DNA of 64,000 bases from Pseudomonadota bacterium (GTDB lineage: Bacteria; Pseudomonadota; Gammaproteobacteria; Burkholderiales; Burkholderiaceae_C), in the NCBI GenBank assembly GCA_029780695.1, contig JAKOYD010000130.1:1-64000 (forward strand), written 5' to 3'. A program made the translations under genes and the position numbers. Below the pieces are notes generated by a model that did not search any database, was not told the DNA's origin, and saw only the letters and a program-made list of their open reading frames with translations. Each line of letters starts with the position of its first letter. Within the stretch, counting starts at the first letter, position 1. Positions 43,838 through 47,528 of the stretch are shown piece by piece.

Positions 43838-44878
43838 TCACGCCGTCGGCTGGCGCAAGCGCAGGCCGGTCTTTTTCAGGATCGCGCTGGAAAAAAGCAC
43901 GTCGTGCGCGCGGTGTGCCGGGCCCAGCACCTTGGCCAGCACCTCGGCCTGGGCCAGCACCTCGGTACGCGTGTGGCCATGCAGCATGGCAAACAGGTTG
44001 TAGCGCCACACGCCGGCCTTGCGCGGGCGGCGGTAGCAGTGGCTGACGGCCGGCTGGCTGCCGATGAGTTCGCCCAGGCGGTCGACCTCGGCGTCTTCGA
44101 CGTCCCACACGCTCATGCCGTTGGCGGCGTAGCCCAGGCGGTAGTGGTTGGGCACGGCGGCGATGCGGCGCACCACGCCGGCGGCCAGCAGCTCGGCCAG
44201 GCGTGTGCGCACGGCGTCGCTGGTGCTGCCCAGCACGGCGGCTACGCTGGCGTAGGGGCGCGGCACCAGCGGCAGGCCGGATTGGGTGGCGGCGATGAGC
44301 TGGCGGTCAAACTCGTTCAGCGTGATTGGCTGGGGCGCCGGCAGCGGCTGGCGCGCTGCCGAGTCATCGCCCAGGCGGGGCGCGCGCGCCAGCAGCGGCA
44401 GGTACAGGCCGACGAAGTATTCGCGCTCTTTCGGAAAGGCGTGCACCGGCAGGCCGGTGGCGGCCTCGATCTGGTCGCAGGCGGCCCAGGCGGCCTCGGG
44501 CGTTTCGGCGGCCACCACGAACCACATGTTCAGCGCGTGGTCGCGCCGGTAGTTGTGCGCCACCTCGGGCAGGGCGTTGATCAGCGCCGTGACCTCGGCG
44601 TAACGGGCTTCGGGCACCTGCAGCGCGGCCAGGATGAACTGGCCGCCGGCGCGCTCGATGTGAAACAGCGGCCCGAAGCGCGTGAGCACGCCGCTGCCCA
44701 GCAGGCGCCCGAGCTGGTCGATCACCTGCGCTTCGGTCATGCCCAGCTCGGCCGCGACGTCGGAAAACGGGCGGTCTGTCAGCGGCAGCTCGCGCTGCAG
44801 GCGGTCGATCAGCCTCGCCGCATCGAGGTCGATGCCGACGGGCAGGCGCAGCAGGTGGGCGGGTGCGTCAGGGCGCAT
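43838..44878 (-). CDS. Siroheme decarboxylase, fused NirD/L/G/H-type (second copy)
   Basis: The 346-residue protein consists of two Lrp/AsnC-like units: 1-165 (DRLQRELPLTDRPFSDVAAELGMTEAQVIDQL, NYRRDHALNMWFVV) and 175-346 (FDRQLIAATQSGLPLVPRPYASVAAVLG, SHCYRRPRKAGVWRYNLFAMLHGH). This is the heme d1 NirDLGH siroheme decarboxylase layout, here as a fusion of two subunits; the conserved His of H-Y-R and H-A-L-N is visible. With the other fused gene, all four Nir subunits may be covered. The C-terminal unit (VPNHYRLGYAANGMSVWDV) looks most like NirH. It is not a true transcription regulator. Confidence 0.82.
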   Translation of the reverse strand: MRPDAPAHLLRLPVGIDLDAARLIDRLQRELPLTDRPFSDVAAELGMTEAQVIDQLGRLLGSGVLTRFGPLFHIERAGGQFILAALQVPEARYAEVTALINALPEVAHNYRRDHALNMWFVVAAETPEAAWAACDQIEAATGLPVHAFPKEREYFVGLYLPLLARAPRLGDDSAARQPLPAPQPITLNEFDRQLIAATQSGLPLVPRPYASVAAVLGSTSDAVRTRLAELLAAGVVRRIAAVPNHYRLGYAANGMSVWDVEDAEVDRLGELIGSQPAVSHCYRRPRKAGVWRYNLFAMLHGHTRTEVLAQAEVLAKVLGPAHRAHDVLFSSAILKKTGLRLRQPTA

Positions 44879-45016: not shown

Positions 45017-46198
45017 TCAGCGGGTGCATCTGAAATACCGCGCGCCGGTCTGCTTGAAGCGGCGGCGGCTGAACAGCACCTGGCGTGGCTGCTCGGCCAG
45101 CCCGGCGGCGGCGATGGCGGCGTGCAGCAGCGCCAGTGTCTCGTCGCGGCTGCGGCCGTGCACCATGCAATACAGGTTGTAGCGCCAGCCCGGTGCGCGC
45201 TCGCGCCGGTAGCACAAGGTGATGCCGGGCTGCGTGGCCAGGCGCTCGCCAAAGGCATCGACCTGCTCGTCGGGAAGGTCGAACACCGTCATGGCGTTGG
45301 CGCCAAAGCCCAGTTCGTGGTGGCGCACCACCAGGCCAAAGCGGCGCAGCGTGCCGGCGTCGAGCCAGGCCTGGATGCGCGCCAGCACGTTGGCTGTGGG
45401 CACGCCCAGCTGATCGGCCCAGTGGGTGAAGGGCTCGGCGACCAGTGTCGCGTCAGGTCTCAAATGTTGGATGGGCGTGCCGTCATCGGCGTTTGTGGCA
45501 AGGCGCTGATCGCCGCCAATACCGGATGTATTGGCCAGATCAGCAACGCCGCCACGGACGTCGAGGGCGGTGCGAACACCGACATTTGAGGCCTGACGCG
45601 ACACCATAGGCAGGCCGGCTTCGACCAGGGCGGCCAGGGCGCGGTCGGCTGCGTCCACGCGCGGCGGGCGTTGGCGAATGGCGCTGCCGCCGACGGCGGG
45701 GCGGTGCAGATCGAACCCCAGGTCGATGCGATAGGGGCGCACCATCTTCAGCCGGGTGACGGGCAGGGCGGTTTCGCTTTCGATGGCGGTCAGGGCCTGA
45801 TCCAGCGGCTCGGCGCCGGTGCCGGTGATGACGAACCACAGGTTAAGCGCATGCTCGCGCTCATAGTTGTGGTTGACGCCGGGGTGGGCGGACACGAGCG
45901 CGGCAACCGCCTCGAGCCGCTCAGGCGGCACGGCCATGGCGCACAGCAGGGCGGCGCCGCCCACGCCGGGTGCCCACACACCGCCGATGCGGCTGATGGC
46001 GCCGCGCTGCAAGCCTTTGGCGAAGACCTCGATGACTTCAGTTTCTGTAGCACCTTCCGCTTGTCCCACATGGACAAAGGGGCGATTTGATAAGGGAAAG
46101 CCGCGCTGCCAGTTGTTCAGCAGGCGTTCGTTCAAGCCCACGTCGGCGTGACCAGCCGCCATGGCCCCTGGTGTCGCGTCGTGCCGGAAGTGAAACAT
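45017..46198 (-). CDS. Siroheme decarboxylase, fused NirD/L/G/H-type (first copy) with in-frame MITE
   Basis: The 393-residue protein has the same two-unit layout as its neighbour: NERLLNNWQRGFPLSNRPFVHV and NYEREHALNLWFVI in the first half, then RRFGLVVRHHELGFGANAMTVFDLPDEQ and CYRRERAPGWRYNLYCMVHGRS in the second. About residues 199-252 (RQASNVGVRTALDVRGGV...) come from an inserted 159-bp element that keeps the frame; without it the protein would be ~340 residues, like its neighbour. The insertion breaks the first helix of the second DNA-binding-like unit. The start ATG 46198 (MFHFRHD) is preferred; the longer frame from 46279 reads a palindrome. Confidence 0.82.
   Translation of the reverse strand: MFHFRHDATPGAMAAGHADVGLNERLLNNWQRGFPLSNRPFVHVGQAEGATETEVIEVFAKGLQRGAISRIGGVWAPGVGGAALLCAMAVPPERLEAVAALVSAHPGVNHNYEREHALNLWFVITGTGAEPLDQALTAIESETALPVTRLKMVRPYRIDLGFDLHRPAVGGSAIRQRPPRVDAADRALAALVEAGLPMVSRQASNVGVRTALDVRGGVADLANTSGIGGDQRLATNADDGTPIQHLRPDATLVAEPFTHWADQLGVPTANVLARIQAWLDAGTLRRFGLVVRHHELGFGANAMTVFDLPDEQVDAFGERLATQPGITLCYRRERAPGWRYNLYCMVHGRSRDETLALLHAAIAAAGLAEQPRQVLFSRRRFKQTGARYFRCTR
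45445..45603. mobile_element. MITE-like element inside a nir gene
   Basis: Terminal inverted repeats of 23 bp start GTGTCGCGTCAGG and differ at one base; the inner part forms a second palindrome (GCTGATC ... CCAATAC-CGGAT-GTATTGG ... GATCAGC). Total length is 159 bp, exactly 53 codons, with no stop codon on the nir frame. No transposase is encoded. A clear target-site duplication is not seen (at most CA on both sides). Confidence 0.78.
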
Positions 46199-46233
46199 GA
46201 CGTCGCTTCGCTCAATGACCGGTGCTGGCGCAC

Positions 46234-46287
46234 CATGACGAATGACAAAAGCGCGGCGCCAGGCATTGGCTTTCGTCATTCGTCATG
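46234..46287. repeat. Inverted repeat between nirF and the fused nir gene
   Basis: CATGACGAATGACAAAAGC pairs with GCTTTCGTCATTCGTCATG (18 of 19). A third copy of GTCATTCGTCATG lies at 46303-46315. It may be a transcript processing or termination structure in the nir operon. Confidence 0.6.
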
Positions 46288-46325
46288 TGCCGCAAGGCGC
46301 GGTCATTCGTCATGCGTTTCACGCG

Positions 46326-47528
46326 CTAGAACCCCGTGCGCGCCGCGCGCGAGGTGAAGAAGATGCCGCTGGGCGACTTGGCCGGCAGCGTGGCCAGGGT
46401 CTGGAACGATTGCGTGTCGATCACCACCACCTTGTGGTCGTCGCGCGCGCTGATCCACACCGCGTCGCCGCGCGGGGTGAATTCCATGTGCAGCACGGCC
46501 TTGCCGGGTTTCAGGCTGTGCACGATCTGCCGCGTTTGCGTGTCGATGACCTGCACCGTGTCGTAATCGGGCACGGCAAAGTTGACCCACACTTGGCGCC
46601 CGTCGGGCCGCGCCATCACGAACACGGGCTGGCCGGCGACGGAAATGCGGCCCACCTCCTTCCACGTGTCGGTGTCGACCACCAGCACCTCGTGCCGGCC
46701 GATGGCGGGCAGGTAGGCGTGCTTGCCGGCGATGGACCAGCCGCGCAGGTGCGGCATCTTGAACACGGGCAGCGGCTGCTGGCCCTTGCCGTAGCCGGGC
46801 AGGATGCGCTCGACCTTCGGTTCACGCGCCCACAGGTCGATCTTGGCCAGGCCGTCTTCGCCAAACAGGCCGGCGATGTAGGTGCGGCCGTCGGGCGAGA
46901 TGAGGGCGTCGTACGGCTGCTTGCCGATGTGGGCGAACTTCGTCAAAACCGGCTTCGTCGGATCGGCCAGGTCAGCGATCCAGATCTGCCCGGCGTCGAA
47001 CAGCGAGAAGATGAAGCGGTTGCGCGGAATGTCGGCCAGGCCGACCACACGCGAAGCCTTGCCATCGACCACGGCAGGGATGTCGGCCAACTGCTTGAGC
47101 GTGCGCGCATCGAACACCTTGACGCCGCCCGGCTGGTAGTTCTGCGCCACCACCAGCGTGCCGTCGGTCGAGATGGCGCCGCCGATCGAGTTGCCTGCTT
47201 GCATGACCCGGCCTTCGATCTGGCCGGTGAGTAAGTTGACTTTGGTGAGTGCGCCATCGCGCCCGAACACGTAGGCCAAGGCGCCATCGCGCGAGAACAC
47301 GACGGAGGCGTGCGACAAATCGCCCAGCCCTTCGATGGTGCCCAGCCGTGTGCGCGCCGTGGTATCGAGCACACCGATTGAGCCGCTTTCCCGCTCGATC
47401 ACCAGCCCCAGATCGCCGCTGCCGCGCCCGGGCTCGACCAGCAGCTTCGGCGGGCTGGCGCAGGCGCCGAGCAGGGCTGCGATGGAAAACAGGGCTGCCA
47501 GAACAGCGCGGCGCGGAATCATCGTCAT
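46326..47528 (-). CDS. nirF: Heme d1 biosynthesis protein NirF
   Basis: The 400-residue protein is a d1-type beta-propeller without a cytochrome c domain. It has a lipoprotein signal (ALLGACAS lipobox, Cys near 23), so it is a periplasmic lipoprotein. Propeller motifs include VVFSRDGALAYVFGRDGALTKVNLLTGQIEGRV and AVLHMEFTPRGDAVWISARDDHKVVVID. NirF acts in the late periplasmic steps of heme d1 synthesis before NirN. The start overlaps the nirC stop by 4 bp, so both are co-translated. Confidence 0.9.
   Translation of the reverse strand: MTMIPRRAVLAALFSIAALLGACASPPKLLVEPGRGSGDLGLVIERESGSIGVLDTTARTRLGTIEGLGDLSHASVVFSRDGALAYVFGRDGALTKVNLLTGQIEGRVMQAGNSIGGAISTDGTLVVAQNYQPGGVKVFDARTLKQLADIPAVVDGKASRVVGLADIPRNRFIFSLFDAGQIWIADLADPTKPVLTKFAHIGKQPYDALISPDGRTYIAGLFGEDGLAKIDLWAREPKVERILPGYGKGQQPLPVFKMPHLRGWSIAGKHAYLPAIGRHEVLVVDTDTWKEVGRISVAGQPVFVMARPDGRQVWVNFAVPDYDTVQVIDTQTRQIVHSLKPGKAVLHMEFTPRGDAVWISARDDHKVVVIDTQSFQTLATLPAKSPSGIFFTSRAARTGF

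Follow-up and report, generated by a model that had tools for sequence, protein, structure and literature searches.

Rickettsia palindromic elements (RPE), palindromes of about 105-150 bp, occur within unrelated protein genes, in frame, and are tolerated there, according to the available portions of two reports (PMC10969869, PMC2229807). The Correia/NEMIS, ERIC and Yersinia palindromic MITEs are likewise small hairpins, some with TA ends and in-frame fusions, in the available text of PMC2229807. Here we describe a palindrome that keeps the reading frame of a nirDL-type gene within a 64,000-nucleotide stretch of DNA, referred to below as the window. The initial annotation of this locus called such an element rare, which needs qualifying, as the available text on RPE already provides a precedent (PMC10969869, PMC2229807). 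It is very probable, in our judgement, that the insert is a non-autonomous IS630-type MITE that moved into a CTGG in nirDL, and that it is compatible with the frame by virtue of its length, its open frame and its target.

The insertion in nirDL

The features of the locus, in which the element is called T1 type, are as follows.

45017..46279, minus strand: nirDL-type siroheme decarboxylase ORF (heme d1 synthesis) bearing the insert, from Pfam, PDB 4ch7 and a structure model
43838..44878, minus strand: neighbouring paralogue of the same family without the insert, 346 aa, from the ORF list and Pfam
45445..45604, minus strand: T1-type palindromic MITE, 160 bp, from inverted repeats, copies and the empty site; peptide on the coding (minus) strand VSRQASNVGVRTALDVRGGVADLANTSGIGGDQRLATNADDGTPIQHLRPDAT
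45445..45470, plus strand: first arm of the terminal inverted repeat, 26 nt, from a repeat search and comparison with IS630 ends
45579..45604, minus strand: second arm of the terminal inverted repeat, 26 nt, on the same grounds as the first
45443..45444: copy 1 of the 2-bp target duplication, CA on the plus strand and TG on the coding strand; most orthologues have CTGG there
45605..45606: copy 2 of the 2-bp target duplication, CA on the plus strand and TG on the coding strand, on the same basis
45490..45558, minus strand: conserved 69-nt core hairpin, common to elements with other termini, 78.5 bits

The element reads GTGTC...GACAC, and its entire 160 bp fold as a single end-to-end hairpin, at -91.5 kcal/mol as RNA (z -8.7) and -64 kcal/mol as DNA (z -11). 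This is far beyond chance, since no shuffle folded as well (0/200 as RNA, 0/200 as DNA). It carries no transposase gene, and the host frame alone is open across the 160 bp. The initial annotation had an element of 159 bp with 23-bp ends and one mismatch; the element is real, and its size is corrected here to 160 bp, with 26-nt arms that are 92% complementary. The coding frame does run through it without a stop, as had been proposed, over 54 codons rather than 53. The position given for it, residues ~199-252, fits numbering from the Met at 46201, whereas counted from the first ATG at 46279 the insert occupies residues 226-279.

Compared with its orthologues, the gene has a net insertion of 162 bp (54 codons), made up of the 160-bp element and a 2-bp TG duplication. 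Without the 162 bp, the coding-strand flanks align gapless to the orthologue in the genome G013 (87.3% over 480 nt); outside the insert, 72 codon differences between the two genes are synonymous and 37 non-synonymous. The junction is CTGG in most orthologues (e.g., CTGCCGCTGGTG), the exceptions being L069, L072 and L074. In the window the junctions are CCTATG-GTGTC...GACAC-TGGTC, with TG duplicated and an A instead of a C before the first TG. The same letters would result from a 158-bp element and a 4-bp CTGG duplication; 160 plus 2 is favoured because two other copies (L095, L101) have TA/TA flanks with unequal outer bases. Amongst named homologous loci, none has an insert at this site (0/80, the best 80 of 210 found, all 80 spanning the site), and the 53 residues of the initial annotation, sought in distant homologues, occur in none of these 80. 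The collection searched was one of named genomes, from which records very near the source genome may be left out. The neighbouring paralogue (43838-44878) is without the insert, as had been stated at the outset.

Pfam finds NirdL-like_HTH and AsnC_trans_reg2 on the nirDL ORF, in two stretches each, and the solved structural relatives of the protein are siroheme decarboxylases. The start codon is uncertain, and might be at 46279 or at an internal Met such as 46201. The closest named homologues include several Ottowia, and judged on this one gene the source genome is probably an Ottowia. An AlphaFold2 model of the window protein with 33 homologues has a mean pLDDT of 81.9, and the top PDB match of the modelled fold is 4ch7, NirDL (E 2.6e-22). 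In the model the insert is placed between two helices of the second helix-turn-helix. Within the insert, residues 206-246 (counted from Met 46201) have a pLDDT below 50, and other blocks are mostly at 85-98; the low values may stem from the homologues being without the insert. No other lesion is visible in the gene, and orthologues align on either side of the insert.

Two further repeats were observed in genes of this type. The N-terminal part of the window ORF (~residues 1-64; window 46175-46330) has at least 18 dispersed matches in the related genome G008, with 30 of 87 candidates scored, and its DNA has a recurring ATTCGTCAT around GCCGCAAGGCGCGG. As it is dispersed, we regard it as a separate repeat family, and the first ATG of the ORF may fall inside it. 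In a NirDL homologue in G028 (L066 1501-2703; the same protein at L164 3904-5010), the linker that joins the two halves of the protein contains a palindromic repeat of another kind, G+C-rich and in frame. Together with the T1 insert, this indicates that nirDL has received two unrelated in-frame repeats. Inserts of 10 residues are found near the T1 site of NirDL at L177, L192 and L225.

Database searches gave no match for the element: none in Rfam at the gathering score for nine element loci or at E<=1 for window 45300-45750, none in a plasmid search with the element, and none in viral contigs searched with the T1 terminal repeat. In titles and abstract openings, the literature offered no description of the core hairpin or of T1-type elements.

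Copies, IS630-type ends and the shared core

The element was matched in 10 of 100 related genomes, in several by its core alone, and its terminal repeats (<=3 mismatches) occur in 6 of 29 genomes of the genus, those in G028, G021 and G015 not being full T1 elements. Full-length T1 accounts for 16 rows, which represent 14 distinct sites in four genomes, since two G023 rows are orthologous to sites in G000. Three sites are in G000 (the source genome, an 84% complete draft), nine in G008 and one further in G023 (both relatives), and one in G013. Left out of these counts are eight one-ended loci (L096-L100, L102, L111, L112), some of them cut by contig ends. The two further full copies of the source genome are 89% and 76% identical to the window copy; G008, with its nine, is a genome of the same genus. 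Of the thirteen other sites, ten are 84-89% identical to the window copy, and a divergent subtype (71-76%) is present at G000:C89, at G023:732 kb and in G013. Ten sites have a length of 160 bp, three of 161 and one of 159; the flanks are TA/TA at 4, CA/CA (TG/TG) at 2 and unequal dinucleotides at 8. At the level of the family, T1 matches at E<=1e-8 occur in at least 7 of 399 genomes (2 candidates scored per genome). Three family genomes outside the genus contain at least 4 full-length sites, ~69% identical, at which by eye no gene is evidently interrupted.

The ends of T1 are of the IS630 type. A 1,221-bp IS630 on a plasmid of Caballeronia sp. SBC1 agrees with the T1 terminal consensus at 24/26 bases of the right end and 21/26 of the left, and with the coding-strand arm in the window at 23/26 and 21/26, respectively. 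Both ends of ISPna1 from Polaromonas begin CTAGTGTCGCGTCATGA, an IS630 fragment in G028 begins GTGTCATGTCACGAATGAAATGACGG, and 8 of the 15 listed plasmid relatives of this fragment, including ISPna1, are annotated as IS630. DDE_3 transposases are present in 5 of the 9 genomes searched; G000 (as an 84% complete draft), G008 and G023 gave no hit to this IS630-type transposase. A scripted search around nine IS630 transposase loci detected no inverted repeats, and the IS630 termini were thus matched by motif and by eye. The search for other copies and a parent transposase to which the initial annotation had pointed has yielded the 14 full-length sites and an IS630 with matching ends in another genus. 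Its reading of the element as a MITE is borne out by the further copies in the same genome and genus, by the empty site in orthologues and by a transposase-bearing IS630 with near-identical ends.

Elements with other termini have the centre GGCGGCGTTGC...GCGCCTTGCC in common with T1. Besides the T1 type, the termini around this core are AAATCCGGCAGTTG, GTGCAGTGTT, AGAACCTGTT and GGCAACGCTGAACAAG, together with the CTAG-flanked GTGTGCTGTCC and GTACTGC types. The AGAACCTGTT and GGCAACGCTGAACAAG termini may perhaps be IS5-like; the T1 ends are the sole core-bearing termini that were tied to a transposon in this analysis. A covariance model of the core was built from 22 sequences. The core is present in at least 238 of 399 family genomes and at least 105 of 141 genera (<=12 candidates scored per genome), and in at least 70 of 274 genomes at the level of the class, its own family contributing three of the 70 (<=18 candidates scored per genome). 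At 11 of 19 loci outside the family (L298-L317), one element contains two inverted cores ~37-38 nt apart.

Covariation was analysed in 60 matches from 47 loci (59 distinct rows), a model-fitted set of which a few are also in the model and the weakest row is probably false. In this alignment 95.8% of cells pair. Double changes occur in 11 of 17 pairs (reached by 2/500 shuffles) and in 212 cells, with a covariation score of 0.500 (0/500 shuffles for each); slid controls give <=0.12. The number of pair types, 28, shows no excess over shuffles (257/500 attain it). Three wobble pairs are conserved in 58/58, 58/59 and 52/59 cases. attC, REP and known RNAs were all weighed as identities of the core, and against a known RNA stands the negative Rfam result for nine element loci and for window 45300-45750.

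A common core with different termini could reflect end replacement or slow divergence of the ends. We offer it as a tentative idea, somewhat against the odds, that the core may be an independent, class-wide hairpin module, with near-invariant wobble pairs and compensatory changes, carried by many transposon-type termini and several transposases. The T1 lineage would in addition be able to pass through genes by its length, open frame and CTGG target.

Several observations were made on core-bearing families with other ends. Terminal repeats of two such families are abundant at <=2 mismatches: TAGAACCTGTTYRCRNTC has 352 matches in G132 (reversed-pattern control 2), and GGCAACGCTGAACAAGTC has 212 in G052 (control 0). 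At L260 in G335, where two GGCAACGCTGAACAAGTC-type ends lie some way apart, inspection of the ORFs by eye gave no obvious transposase. In G052 (L116 ~930-2060), by eye, an IS630 transposon and a core-bearing element whose ends resemble its own meet at a TA border. The transposon was rejected as the parent of this AAATCCGGCAGTTG-ended element, its ends being similar but not the same (TTGATCCGGCAC). A core-bearing element with GGCAACACTGAACAAGTC ends at L267 ~1120-1365 (G013) appears, on inspection by eye, to interrupt a tRNA-like stretch within a cluster of tRNAs; ARAGORN detects 11 tRNA genes on L267, none at the spot of this element. Several double-core loci outside the family (L298-L317) are close to AGTACTAG.

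Reading frame and selection

Six of the 14 T1 sites are inside long ORFs taken as genes, and all six copies are in frame -0. According to Pfam the hosts belong to different families: NirDL (window), a PutA-like proline dehydrogenase/aldehyde dehydrogenase (G000 and G023), a DUF5682 protein, a sub-threshold DUF6714 ORF, a deaminase/alpha-beta-hydrolase ORF, and a class I/II aminotransferase with the insert near its N-terminus. Relatives without the insert were found for the PutA-like gene (G013, gapless, 89%; G008; G018), which also shows a target duplication and empty site, and for the DUF5682 gene (G013, 305 nt vs 305; G022, 2 gaps). Insert-free aminotransferase relatives occur in several genomes, with small indels in the variable N-terminus. 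In the hydrolase ORF the Pfam match extends across the insert. The weakest case is the DUF6714-like ORF (L104), for which no orthologue was found and whose Pfam match is below the cut-off. The remaining eight sites were judged to be outside genes, three after a scan of their ORFs that gave no Pfam match and the others by ORF listing; the G013 copy is situated between tRNA genes. All in-ORF copies are 160 bp long (6/6), and all four copies of other length are outside genes.

In a consensus built from nine copies, every frame but -0 (VSRHASNVGVRTALAARGGVAALANTDSIGGDQRLATNADDGTAIRHLRRDAT) and +0 contains a stop, and the +0 reading has many Arg, His, Trp and Cys residues; single copies may have additional open frames. 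In 15,408 nt from 11 hand-chosen window gene segments, CTGG occurs at 191 sites on the coding strand, and in 153 of these TG is at codon positions 2-3, the phase that gives frame 0. For CCAG on the coding strand this phase is found in 4/102, so that the rule is limited to one target orientation; CTGG and CCAG together have it in 157/293, against a third by chance, and CTAG occurs once in the same DNA. Since CTGG usually contains an in-frame CTG (Leu) codon, the element is placed in its open frame 0, and as 160+2 is divisible by three, target phase and codon use favour in-frame insertion. The count of six out of six is in part a matter of ascertainment, because gene-breaking insertions are hard to recognise and could be missed. 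As far as sequences can tell, the six copies in one frame agree with the term "protein-compatible" that was first applied to the window copy.

In the reading preferred here, a non-autonomous IS630-type (Tc1/mariner-like) MITE transposed into the CTGG of nirDL and duplicated the TG, presumably through the action in trans of an IS630 transposase. The resulting 162 bp would keep the downstream frame, a coding-strand CTGG with its in-frame CTG would set the insertion in frame 0, and one of the two frame-0 readings left open by the family consensus would be read through; selection would remove insertions that break the frame. The inserted peptide is small, hydrophilic and rich in Ala, Gly and Asp, and is predicted to form a disordered loop that leaves the enzyme fold intact, and the insert-bearing NirDL may be translated and work.

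It is not unusual for a single insertion to find an open frame by chance, and a paralogue adjoins nirDL; the insertion might thus be a recent disabling event that left a pseudogene in waiting, open by luck. We consider this unlikely, though worth some weight, given that six in-ORF copies share one frame, that the PutA-like copy is still open in two genomes, and that the window ORF aligns with orthologues on both sides and has no other visible lesion.

The element might also be retained in genes for an adopted host function of its peptide or hairpin, to which the strong constraint on the core would lend itself. Between G000 and G023, the PutA-like insert has 4 synonymous and 0 non-synonymous differences (30/24 and 12/3 in the flanks), a result with a chance of ~0.009 at 31% synonymous, and constraint on the peptide is suggested in this case. 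General peptide-level selection on in-ORF inserts finds no support in the six in-ORF copies, which compared with the consensus have 22 synonymous and 44 non-synonymous differences, or 33% synonymous vs 31% expected. Three copies outside genes have 4 and 24, and the difference between the two groups is not significant (Fisher p 0.08). As the host genes belong to different families and the core is conserved also in elements outside genes, a host function seems improbable. It is hardly credible that this 54-residue stretch is a variable loop native to NirDL, with no mobile element involved: length does vary in the nearby linker of a few homologues (L164, L177, L192, L225), but amongst the best 80 of 210 homologues none has an insert at this site, and related DNA is found in unrelated ORFs and outside genes.

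Comparison with known systems

Read as an IS630-type MITE, T1 looks like selfish DNA that is tolerated by genes. Protein-compatible selfish palindromes would then occur outside the Rickettsia reports, and because the type of parent transposon, the target and the empty sites are visible, the keeping of the frame is directly testable. A core common to many genomes under several termini raises the question of what recognises the core hairpin. For annotation there is a warning, in that mobile DNA can account for 54 "extra" residues of an enzyme as annotated.

T1 resembles ISPna1 (Polaromonas) and the Caballeronia sp. SBC1 plasmid IS630 in its terminal repeats and apparently in a CTAG/TA-type target, with TA/TA flanks at 4 of 14 sites; unlike these, each with its transposase gene of ~1.13 kb (1,221 bp for the whole Caballeronia IS), T1 is 160 bp long and without a gene. 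Like REP/BIME, it belongs with high-copy palindromes, and outside the family its core often forms inverted pairs; unlike REP/BIME, the core hairpin is inside longer elements with terminal repeats. The Correia/NEMIS, ERIC and Yersinia MITEs have other hosts, and one core under different termini is absent from the available description with which T1 was compared (PMC2229807). The likeness to RPE, again by the available descriptions (PMC10969869, PMC2229807), is one of working rather than of membership, in that T1 also lies in frame in unrelated protein genes. T1 differs from RPE in its betaproteobacterial host, its recognisable IS630-type ends, its visible duplication and empty sites, and a target that helps to explain the frame. 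It would appear to be an in-frame palindrome that works in the manner of RPE and is new in having a visible rule by which the frame is set.
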